IMG/VR virus record: IMGVR_UViG_3300005436_000015
Location: 1-52,503 of that record
DNA length: 52,503 nt
Origin: a virus
Direction: 5' to 3' (one strand)
Below are positions 42,739-51,458 of this stretch, in pieces (positions within the stretch are counted from its first letter, which is position 1; each line of letters opens with the position of its first letter). A program made the translations under genes and the position numbers. The notes under the pieces are model-generated. The model was not told the origin of the DNA, did no database searches, and worked only from the letters and a program-made list of their open reading frames with translations.

Positions 42739-43187
42739 GCGGGGCCGCCGATCAGATCGCATGGTCGCTCAGGTACATACGGGAGCTTTACGGCGAACCG
42801 GGCGGCAAGTGGACGTTCACCGATGGCAGCAACCCCGCTTACCGCCATGGTGGCCCGGATGCCGGGTGGTACAGGCGCACCATGGACGGCTGGCGGCGCG
42901 TCAGCGACACCGAGGCCGCGACCGGGCGGTACGAGGACATGCGGCACTTCATGCACGACCCGCGTACCGTGACGGACATGGAGCCGAAGATAACCGTGCG
43001 CAAGCACACGGCCTATGTGCCCGTCGCGGTGAATGAGGACGGCGTCCCGCTGTCCCATGGTGAGCCGATGGTGGAAGTCGAGCCCGGGTACTGGATGGAC
43101 GCCACGGCACTCGCAGAACTCCACGCCGCCGGGCTAGATCACAACTACCAGCCGGTCACCGATGGCCCGGACACGCCCGAGACTTAG
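42735..43187 (+). CDS. Small mixed protein, unknown
   Basis: This 150-residue protein starts at GTG 42735 (overlap). It has a helical start (ADQIAWSLRYIRELYGEPGG), Trp- and Asp-rich loops, and a beta C-terminal part. It lies two genes upstream of the terminase block. The function is unknown. Confidence 0.6.
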   Translation: MSGAADQIAWSLRYIRELYGEPGGKWTFTDGSNPAYRHGGPDAGWYRRTMDGWRRVSDTEAATGRYEDMRHFMHDPRTVTDMEPKITVRKHTAYVPVAVNEDGVPLSHGEPMVEVEPGYWMDATALAELHAAGLDHNYQPVTDGPDTPET

Positions 43188-43479
43188 CGCCGCAGCCCGC
43201 GGCTATGGTCCCCCGCACCAGAAGCGCGTCAGGGCAGCGAAGGCCGCATGGCGGCCGGGCCAGCCATGCGCACGGTGCGGGCGTCCCATCACCAGCCTGA
43301 CCATGGTCGACCGGTACGGGCGGACCGTCTCCGCCGTCGACCTCGGCCATGTGGACGGCTCGGGCAAGACGGCATACCAGGGGCTCGAGCACCGCCGGTG
43401 CAGCCGCAGTGCAGGCGCGGCCATGGGCAACCGGATGCGCGGGCTCACCCGGCAATGGGCCACGTCGCGGCAGTGGTAG
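43162..43479 (+). CDS. HNH endonuclease adjacent to the terminase genes
   Basis: This 105-residue protein starts at ATG 43162, overlapping the previous gene. It shows a Cys-x2-Cys knuckle (CARCGRPI) and the phage HNH pattern DLGHVDGSGKTAYQGLEHRRCSRSAGAAMGNR. Small HNH proteins beside terminase genes assist DNA cutting during packaging in several HK97-type phages. That role is likely here. Confidence 0.82.
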   Translation: MARTRPRLSAAARGYGPPHQKRVRAAKAAWRPGQPCARCGRPITSLTMVDRYGRTVSAVDLGHVDGSGKTAYQGLEHRRCSRSAGAAMGNRMRGLTRQWATSRQW

Positions 43480-44531: not shown

Positions 44532-44807
44532 GTGACGATTCTCAAGCCCGGCCCGGTCGAGCGCGCCGCGCGTGCTGAGCTGCGCAAACTCGGCTGCTCG
44601 GTGCAGTCCGACACGTCCGCGGCGCTGGCGGTGTCGCTGGCCCGCCAGATCGACACCTCGCGCGGCGCGGTGGCTGCCGCTGCGGCTGCGGCGCAGCTGC
44701 GGGTGCTGCTGGCCGATCTGAGGGCGGCGGCGGCTGCGGCGAGGCCGGAAAGGGACGCCATCGATGAGATCAGCGCTCGCCGTGCCACCAAGGCCGCTTC
44801 TGGGTGA
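44532..44807 (+). CDS. Small terminase-like protein
   Basis: This 91-residue protein starts at GTG 44532. It is Ala-rich and helical (VERAARAELRKLGC, SLARQIDTSRGAVAAAAAAAQL, LLADLRAAAAAARPERDAI). It directly precedes and overlaps the large terminase by 44 bases, the usual place of the small terminase subunit, and has its length class. Direct family motifs are weak. Confidence 0.65.
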   Translation: MTILKPGPVERAARAELRKLGCSVQSDTSAALAVSLARQIDTSRGAVAAAAAAAQLRVLLADLRAAAAAARPERDAIDEISARRATKAASG

Positions 44808-45693
44808 CCAGCGGCCGCGCCTGTGGTCGGTTCCGCCGTCTGAGGTGACGGAGGGCCATCGCGCGGCTGACCTGGCGTCGCTGGCGGGCCTGGATCTGGA
44901 TGACTGGCAGCGCTGGGTGCTGGCGCAGGGCCTGGGCCGGTCGGCGGGCAAGTGGGCGGCGTTCGAGGTGGCCCTGATCGTGGCCCGCCAGAACGGCAAG
45001 GGCAGCGTCCTGGAGGCGCTGGAGCTGGCCGCGCTGTTCCTGTTCGATGACGTCCGGCTGATCCTGCACAGCGCTCACGAGTTCAAGACGGCCGCGGAGG
45101 CGTTCCTGCGGGTGCGGTCGCTGATCGACGGCCGCCCGGAGTTCGAGCGCCGGGTGTCGCGGATCCGCACGGCGGCGGGCGCTGAGGCGATCGAGCTTCG
45201 CAACGGCAAGCGCCTGCGGTTCGTGGCCCGCTCGTCCGGCTCGGGTCGCGGTTTCACTGCTGACCTGGTGATCCTGGACGAGGCGTACAAGCTGGGCGAC
45301 CAGGAGATGGCGGCCCTCCTGCCGACACTGAGTGCCCGCCCGGATCCGCAGGTCTGGTACACCTCGACGGCGGGCGGCCCGGAGTCGGTGCAGCTGGGCC
45401 GGGTGCGTGACCGGGGGCTGAAGGGCTCTGACCCGTCGCTGGCGTTCATGGAGTGGTCCGCCGATGACGGCGACGACCAGGCCGACCCGGTGGTGTGGGC
45501 GCGGGCGAACCCGGGGCAGGGCATCCGGATCACTGAGGCGTACATCGCCCGGGAGATGGCGGCGCTTGGCCCCGATGCGTTCGCCCGTGAGCGCCTGTCG
45601 ATCGGCGACTACCCGTCCGGCGACGCCGGGTCCTGGGATGTCATCGCCGAGGACGCATGGGGCACCGCGGCGTCGCCCGGGGCCCGGATGTGA
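44764..45693 (+). CDS. Large terminase, ATPase part
   Basis: This 309-residue protein starts at ATG 44764. It carries the packaging motor ATPase: Walker A-like RQNGKGS at residues about 75-81, Walker B LVILDEAY at 168-175, and a coupling motif WYTSTAG at 198-204. Phage large terminases are normally about 450-550 residues, with the nuclease in the same chain. Here the frame stops at TGA 45691-45693 and the nuclease begins at GTG 45690 in a -1 frame. Confidence 0.9.
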   Translation: MRSALAVPPRPLLGDQRPRLWSVPPSEVTEGHRAADLASLAGLDLDDWQRWVLAQGLGRSAGKWAAFEVALIVARQNGKGSVLEALELAALFLFDDVRLILHSAHEFKTAAEAFLRVRSLIDGRPEFERRVSRIRTAAGAEAIELRNGKRLRFVARSSGSGRGFTADLVILDEAYKLGDQEMAALLPTLSARPDPQVWYTSTAGGPESVQLGRVRDRGLKGSDPSLAFMEWSADDGDDQADPVVWARANPGQGIRITEAYIAREMAALGPDAFARERLSIGDYPSGDAGSWDVIAEDAWGTAASPGARM

Positions 45694-46193
45694 GCGAAGT
45701 AGCGTTCGGCGCCGAGATCAGCCAGGACCGCCAGCACTGCGCGATTGTGGCGGCGGGCCGTGAGTCCGGCGGCTCCCGTGTCCTGGTGGACCTGGTCTGG
45801 TATGACCACCCGCGCGGCGCGGTGGCCCGCCTGACGGCGCTGGCGGCGGGTCATGACCCGGTGGCGGTGGTGGTGGATGGCCGGTCGCAGTCGGCGACGC
45901 TGATCCGCCCGCTGGCTGATGCGGGGATCGTGGTGATCCAGCCCGCGACGGCTGATGTTGCGGTGGCGCACGGGGAGTTCCTGGACCTGGTGAACGGCGG
46001 TGGCCTGGCGCACCTGGATCAGCCGCCTTTGACGGCGGCGGCCCGTGCGGCGCAGCAGCGGCCCCTGGCGGGTGCGGCGGCGTGGGAGCGGAAGGTTGCC
46101 GTCGATCAGAGCCCCTTGGTAGCCGCGACGGAGGCGGTATGGGGGTTCCTGCGGTGGGAGGAGCTGGCCGCGCCGGGCGTTTTCGTGATCTAG
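45690..46193 (+). CDS. Large terminase, nuclease part
   Basis: This 167-residue protein starts at GTG 45690, overlapping the ATPase stop (GTGA); the open frame extends back to 45657. It has the RNase H-type nuclease pattern: FGAEISQDR near residue 8 (where an Asp is usual), VVVDGRSQSATLIRPLADAGI in the middle, and SPLVAATEAVWGFLRW near the end. The usual first Asp is Glu. It should cut the packaged DNA. The split might be real coupling, programmed frameshift or a sequence error. Confidence 0.85.
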   Translation: MSEVAFGAEISQDRQHCAIVAAGRESGGSRVLVDLVWYDHPRGAVARLTALAAGHDPVAVVVDGRSQSATLIRPLADAGIVVIQPATADVAVAHGEFLDLVNGGGLAHLDQPPLTAAARAAQQRPLAGAAAWERKVAVDQSPLVAATEAVWGFLRWEELAAPGVFVI

Positions 46194-46209: not shown

Positions 46210-46422
46210 GTGCGCACGTCCGTGCTGATGCTGCTGGGCGCCCTGGCCGGGGTCATGGGCGGCGCGGCGCTGATCGGCGTGTGGGCGCTGGGCCTGGCGA
46301 TCATCGCTGACTCGGTGGCGGTGGGCGTGTTCGCGCTGCGGCGTGACTTCCCGGCGCCGTCGGTGCGCGATGTTCCCGGCACGGTGGCCAGCGTCCTGGA
46401 GCGTTACCGGGCGGCCTCGTGA
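46210..46422 (+). CDS. Small two-span membrane protein
   Basis: This 70-residue protein starts at GTG 46210 after AAGGGAG. It has hydrophobic segments at residues about 5-25 (VLMLLGALAGVMGGAALIGVW) and 27-43 (LGLAIIADSVAVGVFA), and a short charged C-terminus. It lies between terminase and portal, where such genes are common in actinophages. Function unknown. Confidence 0.65.
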   Translation: MRTSVLMLLGALAGVMGGAALIGVWALGLAIIADSVAVGVFALRRDFPAPSVRDVPGTVASVLERYRAAS

Positions 46423-46613: not shown

Positions 46614-47129
46614 TCAGTCCTCGGTTGCCTCCACGGTGATCACGGGCTGGATCCCCGCGCGGCGCTCTAGCTCGGTGAGCCGCTTCTCGGCTTCGGATTG
46701 CCACTGCTCCTGGGAGCGGAGCCGCAGCTCGTTATCGCAGAGCACAAGGTAGACCTTGTGCGCCCAGTCGCGCTGACCCGGCGTCATATCGGTGACCGGC
46801 GCAGTGCGCATGAGGTCAACGGCGTTGGTCATCTTCTTGCGGGCCTGGAGCTGGTAGGCGAGGGCGGCGGGCGCGTAGTCGGAGGGCCGCAGCACGCGGT
46901 AGCCGACACCGCGCATGTTCCCGAGGACGCGCGGGATGTTCTCGCGGGTGAACTGCTGGTTGCAGCGGCGCACGGCCCGGTGGGCGCGTGCCCGGTCATC
47001 GGTTTCGAGCACCTTGGCGATCTCATCGAAGCCGAGGTCGGCTCCGTAGGGCATCTCAACGGCGACGTCGTGGATGACGCGCCACTCGGCGCGGCCGTCC
47101 TCGCGGCGGGGTGAGAACAGGTCGGTCAT
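46614..47129 (-). CDS. Winged-helix-like protein of the minus-strand cassette
   Basis: This 171-residue protein starts at ATG 47129 (frame open to 47180). Residues 12-75 look like a winged helix: WRVIHDVAVEMPYGADLGFDEIAKVL, ARAHRAVRRCNQQFTRENIPRVLGNMRGVGYRVL. Residues 85-160 are a long helix with a coiled-coil tendency (MTPGQRDWAHKVYLVLCDNELRLRSQEQWQSEAEKRLTELERRAG). The start is preceded by the repeated element (47141-47153). It lies antisense between terminase and portal genes, downstream of a RAMP-like gene. Confidence 0.62.
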   Translation of the reverse strand: MTDLFSPRREDGRAEWRVIHDVAVEMPYGADLGFDEIAKVLETDDRARAHRAVRRCNQQFTRENIPRVLGNMRGVGYRVLRPSDYAPAALAYQLQARKKMTNAVDLMRTAPVTDMTPGQRDWAHKVYLVLCDNELRLRSQEQWQSEAEKRLTELERRAGIQPVITVEATED

Positions 47130-47140
47130 CTTGGCTCCGG

Positions 47141-47313
47141 TGTCAGGTGAGGGCGAGCAAGGTACGGCGTGACGTGGCATGTGGTGGGACGGACTGGGAC
47201 GGCTAGGCCCAGGGGGGCGAGGTAAGGGTTGTTACGGGGGGTCGAGGCACGGAGTGTCATGTGCTGGCGAGGCGAGAAGCGGGGAAGCACGACGTGGGTT
47301 GGTCAGGTAAGAG
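47141..47313 (-). promoter_or_regulatory. Start-associated repeat elements upstream of the 171-aa gene
   Basis: On the minus strand CTCACCTGACA lies just before the ATG 47129 (47141-47153), and further copies lie at 47217-47228 (CCTTACCTCGC) and 47301-47313 (CTTACCTGACC). The same element lies before the other minus gene at 47984-47994. Common position and sequence suggest a shared signal for translation or transcription control. Confidence 0.55.
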
Positions 47314-47377: not shown

Positions 47378-47974
47378 TCAGGGCGCTTCAACCAGGGCAT
47401 CAATAAGCGCGTCATACCGCCCATAGCCCTGGGATCGTGATGCGCCGAGGCCCTCGATGCGCCCGGCGCGTTCCGCGATCTCGGTCAGGTCGCGGACGTT
47501 GAGCAGTGATTCGTCCAGCTCGAACGGGATGCGCACCGCCCAGTCACGGAAGATCGGGTACGTCGTCGGTGACGCACCCCCGGTGCCCCGGATCATGCGC
47601 GTGAGGTGCCAGCTCCCGGCGTCCCACATCGTCTGAGGGGTGCGCGGCCCGTCGTAGATCAGCGGCACGGCCGGGACGGTGACCATCAGCGAGCGGAGCA
47701 CCTGCGTCCCGAGGCGGGATGCTTTCGCGGCGGTTATGAGTGACCGGCGCATGTTCTCCGACGGGATGGCGATGCCGTCGATGTCGGGGATGTCGTAGAA
47801 CGCGCCCATAAACGAGACATAGGCCATCTCCTCGTGCCACTTCTCGGTGCGGCGCTTACTGGGAGTCCCGCGCAGGTCGGCCATTTTCCTGGCCCACGGG
47901 TTCAGCGGGTTGGCGAGGTCGACGTTGTGCAGGAGCAGCGGCTTCGTGCCAACTGCCTTGATCGTGATCTGCAT
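47378..47974 (-). CDS. RAMP/Cas7-like protein (putative)
   Basis: This 198-residue protein starts at ATG 47974. It begins with a strand and long loop (ITIKAVGTKPLLLHNVDLAN), has an IPSENMRRSLITAAKASRLG segment resembling the IPGSSIKGALR motif of Cas7/Csm3-type RAMP proteins, and ends with GLGASRSQGYGRY, like the glycine-rich loop GGGRSRGYGRV of that superfamily. Length is near the lower range of a Cas7-like fold. No CRISPR array or other Cas gene is seen. It is inferred to be a single-domain RNA-binding-like protein; the similarity is by motif only and needs a profile search. Confidence 0.4.
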   Translation of the reverse strand: MQITIKAVGTKPLLLHNVDLANPLNPWARKMADLRGTPSKRRTEKWHEEMAYVSFMGAFYDIPDIDGIAIPSENMRRSLITAAKASRLGTQVLRSLMVTVPAVPLIYDGPRTPQTMWDAGSWHLTRMIRGTGGASPTTYPIFRDWAVRIPFELDESLLNVRDLTEIAERAGRIEGLGASRSQGYGRYDALIDALVEAP

Positions 47975-47983
47975 AGCAATCCC

Positions 47984-48117
47984 TGTCAGGTGAGATCGGG
48001 AAAGGCGGGGCTAGGCTGGCGGAGCGGGGGACTGTAGCGGTTCGGTTGTACTGTGAAGTCTACCCGAATAAGCCGCGCCAAATAGCGAAGTCTATTCGTT
48101 TAGGACGTGGTTTCTTT
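47984..48117. promoter_or_regulatory. Regulatory gap between RAMP-like gene and portal
   Basis: It holds a copy of the repeated element (47984-47994) before the RAMP-like gene. GAAGTCTA occurs twice (48055-48062, 48087-48094) in direct repeat, and CGAATA (48065-48070) with TATTCG (48093-48098) forms an inverted pair. These AT-richer sites just upstream of the portal gene may be a divergent promoter with operators; no hexamers were fixed. Confidence 0.5.
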
Positions 48118-50150
48118 TGCGGCTCTGGGACCGGCTGATACGCCGCGACACGGGTTTTTGGGAAGGCATGGCGTCCGGCGCTGCCGTGATGACCACCTCC
48201 TACGGCTCTCCCGACCGCGAGGCGGTCCTGCCGCAGTTCACCGCCTGGGCGCAGAAGGCCCACGCGTCCAACGCGCCGGTGTTCGCCGCGTTCCTGCTGC
48301 GCATGATGCTGTTCTCCGAGGCCCGGTTCTGCTTCCAGGCCCTCGATGACAAGCACCTGTTCGGCAACACGGACCTGTCCCTGCTGGAGCACCCGTGGGG
48401 GCCGGACTCCACCTCGGGGAGCCTGCTGGCCCGCATGGAGCAGGACGCGGGCCTGACCGGCAACGCCTACATCTGGGCGCCGCCGGGTGAGGGCCGCCTG
48501 GTGCGGCTGCGGCCGGACTGGATGACGATCATCTCCGAGCTGGTGCCCGTGGACGGCGGCGGGACCTACCGCCGCAAGCGCGGGTACTGGTTCGAGCCGC
48601 CGAAGGGCGTCACCGGGCAGGGCACCGGCCACCTGGTGCCCGCAGATGAGGTGTGCCACTGGGCGCCGATCCCGGACCCGGCGGCGGACTTCCGGGGCAT
48701 GAGCTGGCTGACCCCGATCGTGCGGGACGTGGCCGGTGACGACGGCCTGACCCAGTACAAGATCAAGTACCTGCAGAACAGCGCCAGCCCGAACCTGCTG
48801 ATCAAGTACGCGTCGAAGCTGCAGGACGCCACCGTGGACAAGATCCGCGAGCGGATGGTGGCCCGGCACGGCGGCGTGGATAACGCGTTCAAGACGCTCG
48901 TGCTCGATCAGGGCGCCGACGTGACGGTGATCGGAAACTCGCTGTCGCAGATGGACTTCTCCGGCGTGTCCGCCGCCGGGACGGACCGGATCCTGGCCGC
49001 GTCGATGGTCCCCGGCGTCCTGGTCGGCCTGGAGCCTTTGCGCGGCGCGGGCAAGGGCTACCAGGAGTCGATGCACAAGCTGGCGGACCTGTGGGCCCGC
49101 CCGCAGTGGCGGTCGGTGTGCGGGGCGCTGGGCCAGCTGATCACGGTCCCGGCGGGCAACCGGCTCTGGTTCGACACCGCCGACATCGCCGCCCTGCAGG
49201 ACGGCGCCCTCCAGCGCGGCCAGACGGCCCTGGTGAACATGCAGGCGGTGCTGACGGCGCGGCAGGCGGGCTACTCCCGCGAGTCGATCCCCGTCGCGGT
49301 CACCTCGGGGGATATCACGAAGCTGGTCCCGGACCCGGCAGCGGTGCCGCCCGCGAACCAGCCGGTGCAGCACATGCTCCCGCAGGGCCAGCCTGGCGCG
49401 ACGGCGACCCCGCTCCCGGCAGGCACCCAGACCCGCCTGCCGACCGGCTCGGTGTCCCCGGGCGACGGCGGGAACAGCACGCGGCCGACCCCGCAGCTGG
49501 CCGCCGGGCGCCGCTCGGATCCCGGCGAGCTCGATGACGGCAGCTGGTATGAGCACGACGCCACCCGGGCCGACGGCGGGGACCAGGTGTGCCCGGCGTG
49601 CGGCGCGGTGAACGGCCCGGACGCCCTGTACTGCTCGCAGTGCGGCGCTGAGCTTCCTGACGATGAGCCGGACGACGGCACGGACGGCATGGCCCGGTTC
49701 AACAAGATGCACGGCGCTCCCGGATCCGGGCACGGCGGCCAGTTCGTCGCGGCGGGCGGCGGCGGGGCGAAGAACGGCACCAAGCCCACAGGCGGCACCA
49801 AGACCGCGCCCGCGCCAGCCGGGAACGGGCACAGCGCCGCCGGGCAGAAAGCCGCGCTGCACGCCCAGGCGGCCGCCGACCGGGAGAAGGCCCGCCAGCT
49901 GGAGCACGAGCTCCACGTCCTGGAGCACCAGCACAACCTGGCCCACTCGGCGGCGGTGAAAGCGGCGGCGCAGTCGAAGGCCGCGGGCGCGGGGAAGCAC
50001 GTCGCGCACCACGCGGCGCACCACCGCAAGGCCCGCCGCAAGACGCACCGGGTGCACTCGCTGAAGGCGCGGATCGCGTCGCTGAAGCACCGGATCGCGA
50101 CCCTGCGGAAGCAGGCCAATGACCTGGACGCGAAGGCGGCGAAGCTGTGA
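48117..50150 (+). CDS. Portal protein with zinc-ribbon and basic C-terminal extension
   Basis: This 677-residue protein starts at TTG 48117; ATG at residue 18 is an alternative. Residues 1-400 are the portal core: WDRLIRR at the start, ALDDKHLFGN, TGNAYIWAPP, HWAPIPDP-x-GMSWLTPIVRDVA, KYLQNSASPNLLIKY, and LGQLITVPAGNRLWFDTADIAALQDGALQ. It forms the dodecamer at one capsid vertex. Residues 490-510 form a Cys4 zinc ribbon (C492, C495, C506, C509). Residues 530-677 are Gly, Ala, Lys and His-rich with helical coiled-coil segments. The extension is unusual. Confidence 0.88.
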   Translation: MRLWDRLIRRDTGFWEGMASGAAVMTTSYGSPDREAVLPQFTAWAQKAHASNAPVFAAFLLRMMLFSEARFCFQALDDKHLFGNTDLSLLEHPWGPDSTSGSLLARMEQDAGLTGNAYIWAPPGEGRLVRLRPDWMTIISELVPVDGGGTYRRKRGYWFEPPKGVTGQGTGHLVPADEVCHWAPIPDPAADFRGMSWLTPIVRDVAGDDGLTQYKIKYLQNSASPNLLIKYASKLQDATVDKIRERMVARHGGVDNAFKTLVLDQGADVTVIGNSLSQMDFSGVSAAGTDRILAASMVPGVLVGLEPLRGAGKGYQESMHKLADLWARPQWRSVCGALGQLITVPAGNRLWFDTADIAALQDGALQRGQTALVNMQAVLTARQAGYSRESIPVAVTSGDITKLVPDPAAVPPANQPVQHMLPQGQPGATATPLPAGTQTRLPTGSVSPGDGGNSTRPTPQLAAGRRSDPGELDDGSWYEHDATRADGGDQVCPACGAVNGPDALYCSQCGAELPDDEPDDGTDGMARFNKMHGAPGSGHGGQFVAAGGGGAKNGTKPTGGTKTAPAPAGNGHSAAGQKAALHAQAAADREKARQLEHELHVLEHQHNLAHSAAVKAAAQSKAAGAGKHVAHHAAHHRKARRKTHRVHSLKARIASLKHRIATLRKQANDLDAKAAKL

Positions 50151-50162
50151 AAGGACCCGGCG

Positions 50163-51458
50163 ATGGCTGAGGAGATCAGCGCGTGGCTGGCCGGGCGGGC
50201 GGTATCTGAACTTCAGTTCGGTCACGGGTCGAAACTGTGGAAGTACTGGACCGCAGGTGAGGGCTTCGCGAAGTGGTCCGGCGCCCTCCACAAGTGGACG
50301 ACCCTCCGCGACCTGCTGCTGAAGGCCGGTGTCCCGGCGCATTCGGTGGATGGCCTGACAACCAACATCATCATGGCGGTCATGCCGGGCTACATGAAAC
50401 TGGCCCACGCGAAGGAAATGCACGCCGGGCGGGCCGAGATGAAGGCGTCGTCGGTCAACAACCTGCCTGACTCCGCGTTCGCGTACATCGAGCCCGGCGG
50501 CAGCAAGGACGCATCAGGCCGCACCGTCCCCCGCTCTCTGCGGCACTTCCCCGTGCACGACGCGGCGCACGTGCGCAACGCGCTGGCACGGGCCCCGCAA
50601 TCACCGTTCGGGACCAAGGCCATGCCGAAGATCCGGCAGGCCGCCAAGAAACTCGGAGTCGACGTGAGCACTGACACCCAGCCCGCCACCCGCACCGAGT
50701 ACATGCGGCTGTACCAGCTGGAGGACATCCACATCCTGCGGTCGGCAGACGGCGGCGACGGGCGCACCGTCGAGGCATACGCCGCGGTGTTCGGCCAGGA
50801 AGCGGAAATCAAGGATCACGAGGGCCACTACATCGAGGTCATCGAGCCCACCGCGTTCTCCCGGGCGATCGACCACGCGCAGCGGGCCCGCGGCGGGTTC
50901 CCCGGCTCGGTGAAGGTTCTCTACAACCACGGCATGACGATCAACGGCACGCCCAGCGAGCGGTTCAGCATGCCGATCGGCGTCCCGGTCGACATCCGCG
51001 CCGAGGCGCGCGGGCTGCTGACCCGCACCCGCTACTCCGAGACGCCGCTGGCCGATGAGGTGCTGGAGAACATCCGCGCCGGGTCGATCACCAGCCAGAG
51101 CTTCACCGGCCGGATCATGCGAAGCGACCCGCAGCTGCGCCGCGGCGACCGCTACCGCCCCGGCAGCGACGGCACGCTGCGCACCGTGCGGCGCACCGAG
51201 CTGGGCCTGCGCGAGTATGGCCCGGTTCTGTGGCCCGCTTACTCCGGCGCCGAGATCCTCGGCGTGCGGATGTCCACTCCAGGTGGCGACCTGGACCCGG
51301 ACGAGCTTGACGACGCAGACGGCACTCCGCCCGATGACGGACCCGCCACCGGCGACCCGCTCCCCCAGGAGGAGGAGCACTCGGCCCGGTATCACCAGCA
51401 CGCCCTCTATGTGCTGCGCTCCCAGGAGGCGCGCGAGAAGGCCGGGCTGGTCTGGTAA
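50163..51458 (+). CDS. HK97-type prohead protease with N-terminal helical domain
   Basis: This 431-residue protein starts at ATG 50163. Residues 1-165 are an extra helical domain with a conserved LPDSAFAYIEPGG...RSLRHFPVHDAAHVRNALARAPQSPFG...AMPKIRQAAKKLGV pattern, found in several phage proteins. Residues 180-370 form the U35-type serine protease: EAYAAVFGQEAEI, VKVLYNHGMTI with the catalytic His near 256, and SITSQSFTG with the serine near 311-313. It cleaves the scaffold and capsid during head maturation. The C-terminus is acidic. Confidence 0.88.
   Translation: MAEEISAWLAGRAVSELQFGHGSKLWKYWTAGEGFAKWSGALHKWTTLRDLLLKAGVPAHSVDGLTTNIIMAVMPGYMKLAHAKEMHAGRAEMKASSVNNLPDSAFAYIEPGGSKDASGRTVPRSLRHFPVHDAAHVRNALARAPQSPFGTKAMPKIRQAAKKLGVDVSTDTQPATRTEYMRLYQLEDIHILRSADGGDGRTVEAYAAVFGQEAEIKDHEGHYIEVIEPTAFSRAIDHAQRARGGFPGSVKVLYNHGMTINGTPSERFSMPIGVPVDIRAEARGLLTRTRYSETPLADEVLENIRAGSITSQSFTGRIMRSDPQLRRGDRYRPGSDGTLRTVRRTELGLREYGPVLWPAYSGAEILGVRMSTPGGDLDPDELDDADGTPPDDGPATGDPLPQEEEHSARYHQHALYVLRSQEAREKAGLVW

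Follow-up and report, generated by a model that had tools for sequence, protein, structure and literature searches.

Packaging genes of the window

The window analysed here is the whole 52,503-base viral contig of IMG/VR record IMGVR_UViG_3300005436_000015, whose ends define no cos site. Its packaging module (Table 1) has the HK97-type layout, with an HNH gene near the terminase and genes for the portal and the protease downstream. The small ORF ahead of the ATPase gene returned no match in the family search. At its C terminus the portal protein is extended by a long segment that includes a zinc-ribbon-like motif at residues 491-514, where Pfam places Zn_Ribbon_1 at residues 492-513. Two minus-strand ORFs separate the gene of the hydrophobic protein from that of the portal, the rest of the packaging module being encoded on the plus strand; their GC3 is coding-like, and the Pfam search returned no match for either.

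Table 1. Features of the packaging module and of the junction between the terminase genes (positions in the window unless another locus is named)
Feature	Position	Strand	Evidence or remark
HNH endonuclease, upstream of terminase genes	43162-43479	+	PHROG 1808, E 1.5e-11
Small ORF, 91 aa, putative small terminase (TerS-like)	44532-44807	+	Position only
Large terminase ATPase subunit, 309 aa	44764-45693	+	PHROG 9 profile, AF2 model, motifs
GTGA stop-start overlap, ATPase/nuclease	45690-45693	+	Cargo-insertion site in relatives
Stand-alone terminase nuclease subunit, 167 aa, GTG start, RNase H fold	45690-46193	+	PHROG 9, AF2
Nuclease acid E9	45714-45716	+	
Nuclease acid D63	45876-45878	+	
Nuclease acid D139	46104-46106	+	
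Small hydrophobic (membrane-like) protein, after nuclease	46210-46422	+	Hydrophobic; homologues beside split nucleases
ORF between hydrophobic protein and portal	46614-47180	-	
ORF between hydrophobic protein and portal	47378-47974	-	
Portal protein, C-terminal extension and zinc ribbon	48117-50150	+	Pfam Phage_portal 4e-28
Head maturation protease	50163-51458	+	Pfam Peptidase_S78 2e-12, PHROG 80 1.5e-21
ORF between terminase halves, L005	1158-1826		Overlaps rebuilt on both sides
ORF between terminase halves, L014	1239-1913		Overlaps rebuilt on both sides
ORF between terminase halves, L126	1229-1726		Overlaps rebuilt on both sides
Further loci with overlap-rebuilding gap ORFs: L177, L182, L237, L138			

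Domains and folds of the two halves

The two adjacent proteins had been proposed to be the halves of one terminase, and profile comparison bears this out: the ATPase matches positions 58-467 (E 4e-56) and the nuclease positions 480-668 (E 5e-11) of the 812-position PHROG 9 profile, consecutively, and nothing else in the contig matches PHROG 9. Against Pfam TerL_ATPase the ATPase half reached an E value of 9e-4, under the cutoff of that model. It nevertheless carries the elements of an N-terminal ASCE packaging ATPase, namely a Walker A motif RQNGKGS from residue 75, a Walker B motif VILDE from residue 169 and a coupling motif YTSTAG from residue 199, and these are conserved among relatives.

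The AF2 model of the ATPase (pLDDT 92) had as its top structural match residues 1-271 of HK97 TerL (6z6d; Z 27.9). Since a sequence search of the nuclease profile against the PDB gave no convincing match, structure was used for comparison of the nuclease. Its AF2 model (pLDDT 88) has the RNase H fold and matched best residues 294-483 of HK97 TerL (Z 13.6), with TerL nuclease domains occupying ranks 1-31 of the search. As the two models align to residues 1-271 and 294-483 of the same protein, the break between them is placed by modelling in the interdomain linker of an HK97-type TerL, and each half is predicted to be a complete domain.

The junction between the genes

The preliminary description had the ATPase gene ending at TGA with the nuclease gene opening at an overlapping GTG in the -1 frame. 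Direct reading of the sequence confirmed this arrangement, with the TGA at 45691-45693 and the GTG at 45690-45692. The ATPase ends in PGARM, its gene closing with ATG-TGA, and the change of frame at the junction is visible in the GC content by codon position. An alternative in-frame ATG at 45657, upstream, also opens the nuclease frame; it is not conserved and was rejected as the start. Homology and conservation of the nuclease begin at the GTG (MSgEVAFg...), and a nuclease-frame stop occurs within 22 nt upstream of the start in 11 of the 77 adjacent relatives with this junction, so the GTG at 45690 is the likely start of the nuclease, as judged from these alignments.

Occurrence of the split terminase in relatives

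As the preliminary description had suggested, the same split was sought in relatives, which were collected from IMG/VR by ATPase, by nuclease and by profile. After removal of duplicates, 92 distinct split loci and 51 fused loci were retained, the members being metagenomic contigs, which are fragments, and one MAG contig. The set retrieved by the nuclease query is biased toward the split clade; loci retrieved with the ATPase query are free of that bias, and the latter query returned both split and fused states within the ATPase lineage of the window (lineage A). At the 92 split loci the two domains lie in separate frames and not in one polypeptide as in canonical single-chain TerL.

The exact one-base offset, with the nuclease start one base before the ATPase stop codon, is shared by 77 of the 79 adjacent split loci (GTGA in 75 and ATGA in two), which is well beyond chance. 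The split nucleases form 82 clusters at 95% identity, and their pairwise identity goes down to 42%; the junction is thus not a copied error. The same junction is present in an Actinomycetota MAG contig (L156), which was the only result of the host search. In thirteen contigs of 40-69 kb, among them the window, a single ATPase half and a single nuclease half are present and a full-length TerL is absent. A second full-length terminase elsewhere in the genome was considered and was found neither in the window contig nor in the 12 other large contigs.

Genes inserted at the junction

A stretch of 82-1035 nt keeps the halves apart in 13 of the 92 split loci. In ten of these the gap holds an ORF whose start lies one base ahead of the ATPase stop and whose own stop overlaps the start of the nuclease, so that a four-base NTGA overlap is rebuilt with both neighbours. 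Recognisable gap genes encode an N6/N4 DNA methylase, a Dam methylase and an endonuclease VII/HNH-type protein, and the gap of L204 contains both a Dam-like gene and an endonuclease VII/HNH-type gene. The other gap ORFs are short and without recognised family, and the shortest of them are perhaps mere open frames. To judge from these sequences, a single polypeptide is impossible at the insert loci without further events.

Two loci (L221 1226-1332 and L215 3827-3933) have a similar, apparently non-coding insert of 107 nt between the halves. Their ATPase stop is TAA/TAG and not TGA, and no overlap is present.

Exchange of the two halves between lineages

Trees were obtained by quick searches under a model with a single matrix, and show large main contrasts. 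The nuclease tree unites all split sequences in one clade (support 100). On the ATPase tree, the split and fused labels require no fewer than four changes, and the AU test rejected a common clade of the split sequences (p-value 4.5e-84). Four ATPase lineages, of 36, 45, 7 and 4 loci, are paired with the split nuclease clade, the first two being lineages A and B. The loci L129 and L130 have nucleases that are 96% identical beside ATPases that are 29% identical, and the window and L185 share nucleases of 92% identity and ATPases of 36%. Conversely, window-lineage ATPases are found in the fused TerLs L022, L023, L026 and L027, and lineage-B ATPases in the fused L175 and L176. Because near-identical nucleases stand beside very different ATPases, the four-base junction is also a module boundary; on the evidence of the trees, it is a recombination boundary within a normally single gene, whose halves have exchanged partners.

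The flanking genes follow one half or the other. A homologue of the TerS-like ORF lies upstream in 30 of 36 lineage-A split loci and in none of the 45 loci of lineage B; this ORF travels with the ATPase lineage. A homologue of the hydrophobic protein is present at 84 of the 92 split loci vs 4 of the 51 fused ones, and hydrophobic protein and portal stand beside the split nuclease whichever ATPase lineage is present. Given the conservation of the split and the independent swapping of the two genes, the split is real and old, and not a sequencing error.

The nuclease active site

The first active-site position was placed by structural register, since profile-profile comparison against a single HK97 sequence was too weak to establish one; D63 and D139 were placed by sequence alignment. 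Residue 1 of the nuclease model aligns to residue 294 of HK97 TerL, 393 of T4 gp17 and 258 of SPP1 gp2. The earlier reading that the usual first Asp is Glu here holds in this register, in which Glu9 corresponds to D302 of HK97 and D401 of T4. In place of the three-aspartate centre of HK97 (D302, D388, D471), the window thus has E9/D63/D139, and a sister group has A/N/D.

Across 91 split nucleases, positions 9, 63 and 139 read E/D/D in 45, A/N/D in 38 and otherwise in 8, and the losses at positions 9 and 63 coincide (Fisher p-value 4e-19, uncorrected for relatedness). E/D/D is nearly uniform in lineage A (35/36), A/N/D prevails in lineage B (32/44), and the small lineages are mixed. Catalysis has probably been lost in the A/N/D nucleases, as their aligned residues suggest, although the lost acids might conceivably be replaced by carboxylates at residues 12, 13 or 34. 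Median dN/dS is 0.25 for E/D/D and 0.32 for A/N/D nucleases, revealing purifying selection on both types, and this selection on the A/N/D group argues for a working protein.

The fused relatives vary as well, with D/D/D in only 25 of 51, so a loosened nuclease site is no peculiarity of the split. The fused TerLs L031, L034, L036, L039, L048 and L078, of the same broad family, have degenerate nuclease acids (E/N/D, T/D/D, A/N/D), and the nuclease may have been lost repeatedly among these phages. In several split nucleases (L151 2836-3363, L154 4983-5507, L084 1293-1817 and others) the first active-site strand is followed directly by a short insert showing a C-x-C-H pattern (e.g., ISDGCTCHPKKARKHGS), possibly a metal-binding loop.

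Explanations of the split

Three explanations had been offered for the overlapping frames: a real two-protein packaging motor, a programmed frameshift and a one-base error. Strong support for the first comes from the conserved split and from the insert loci, and we consider it highly probable that the large terminase here is a genuine two-protein enzyme, consisting of an ATPase and an RNase H-fold nuclease whose genes are joined by the one-base stop-start overlap.

The alternative that survives best, unlikely as we consider it, is that the nuclease half has been recruited elsewhere, e.g., to regulation or head completion, and that the ATPase alone constitutes the motor. The loss of two of the three catalytic acids in most lineage-B partners would fit such recruitment, as would the inheritance of the nuclease with the portal and the membrane protein and not with the ATPase, and the packaging ATPase of phi29 works with a vestigial nuclease domain (PMC9410871). 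However, the nuclease has kept the TerL nuclease fold and its place beside the ATPase, expression of the two is apparently coupled, and the E/D/D site of the window type is intact save for the change of Asp to Glu.

Programmed -1 ribosomal frameshifting at the overlap, yielding a fused TerL, perhaps besides the separate ATPase, is very improbable. The offset is indeed -1, and the two frames of the window stay open together over about 100 nt, making a shift formally possible. Against this, a slippery heptamer is not conserved: some heptamer of the XXXYYYZ form occurs in the open stretch of 18 of the 77 adjacent loci, none of them conserved. The upstream stops leave a usable stretch of at most 22 nt in 11 loci, with a minimum of 13 nt. 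At the 13 insert loci other DNA with in-frame stops, and in some of them with genes, intervenes between the halves, and the ORF of ten of them gives a third frame arrangement that is unbridgeable by one shift. Furthermore, the offset is common to four highly divergent ATPase lineages, all of them paired with one nuclease clade. A low-level frameshift product may still, by the presence of such heptamers, arise in some members.

Even less credence is given to a terL gene that is decaying or split by an intron or intein, with its halves joined after transcription or translation. There are precedents in the intron that interrupts terL in ICP1 (PMC10448857) and the inteins present in mycobacteriophage genes (PMC5050341), but a four-base overlap leaves no space for either, and Rfam, group I and II intron families included, gave no match in the 13 insert loci or the window stretch. 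Decay is opposed by the purifying selection on the nuclease and by the conserved ATPase motifs. A one-base sequencing or assembly error that broke a single terL gene in this contig has nothing in its favour except the existence of the fused relatives, and is practically dismissed by the recurrence of the identical junction across many metagenomes, in 77 divergent contigs, as well as in the bacterial MAG contig, where the same error would have had to be repeated.

A model for the two-protein terminase

A Shine-Dalgarno-like motif of at least four bases precedes the nuclease in 5 of the 77 adjacent loci and is absent in the other 72, so that the stop-start overlap occurs mostly without such a motif, as in translationally coupled gene pairs. 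Since the inserts rebuild the overlaps on both sides and the motif is so often missing, translation of the nuclease is probably coupled to that of the ATPase by termination-reinitiation. Ribosomes finishing the ATPase would halt at the TGA and restart at the overlapping GTG, tying nuclease synthesis to ATPase synthesis. The two proteins would then come together at the portal. The nuclease would take the place usually occupied by the C-terminal domain of TerL, close to the portal, whose gene shares its inheritance.

The E/D/D nucleases, that of the window included, probably still cut DNA. Those of the A/N/D type would be structural or regulatory subunits, with cutting left to another enzyme, e.g., the HNH endonuclease whose gene lies upstream. 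This gene is a candidate because in HK97 the cleavage of cos by TerL is stimulated by gp74 (PMC9410871). The presence of an HNH gene showed no clear difference between lineages A and B in the short flanks available (15/36 vs 24/45), and HNH replacing the dead nuclease is a lead only. Taken to its full extent, the proposal is that in a large group of actinobacterial phages, most of them uncultured, the nuclease is a separate, interchangeable subunit, that recombination reassorts it with the ATPase at a fixed four-base junction that also receives cargo genes, and that about two fifths of these nucleases are catalytically dead structural subunits with cutting done by another enzyme; this broader view is plausible yet tentative.

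Relation to known terminases and significance

The window enzyme probably works like an HK97-type large terminase, as two chains and without the three-aspartate centre. It resembles HK97 TerL in both domain folds, their order and the PHROG family, and the HNH gene and portal of the HK97 module correspond to those of the window, but HK97 TerL is one polypeptide. Some actinophage annotation guides name ATPase-domain and nuclease-domain terminases separately. Among the closest cultured relatives are Rhodococcus phage REQ1, Gordonia phage Keelan and Arthrobacter phage CallinAllBarbz, with fused TerLs annotated, unlike in the window, as single terminase genes. REQ1 shares with the window the order of TerL, small putative membrane protein and portal. 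These cultured relatives are about 45% identical in the ATPase and 29-38% in the nuclease, and no cultured phage record exceeded 38.1% identity to the split nuclease.

Similar to the A/N/D group, phi29 gp16 serves a motor with a vestigial nuclease domain (PMC9410871), but there the vestige lies within one chain, with no TerS and with pRNA in use, whereas here it is a separate gene. The terL coding sequence of ICP1 is likewise in two pieces (PMC10448857); unlike the present loci, which have overlapping genes, no intron and, in relatives, gap genes, its RNA is spliced to one message. In human cytomegalovirus, terminase functions are spread over several subunits, the ATPase being assigned to pUL56 and the nuclease to pUL89 (PMC6897398). 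The pUL89 protein itself combines an ATPase fold with a nuclease fold and is not known to be divided at the domain linker. The C-terminal RNase H nuclease domain of TerL has been called universal across Caudovirales (PMC7824862), and the literature searched, with most subscription papers outside its scope, held no described case of a terminase split into ATPase and nuclease genes.

For annotation, such nuclease halves match families weakly and would be missed or called hypothetical. A nuclease that is separate, swappable and in places apparently dead opens direct tests of whether it is needed for translocation. Furthermore, the split motor makes testable how the nuclease is held off during packaging, what its stoichiometry on the portal is and which enzyme cuts the DNA.
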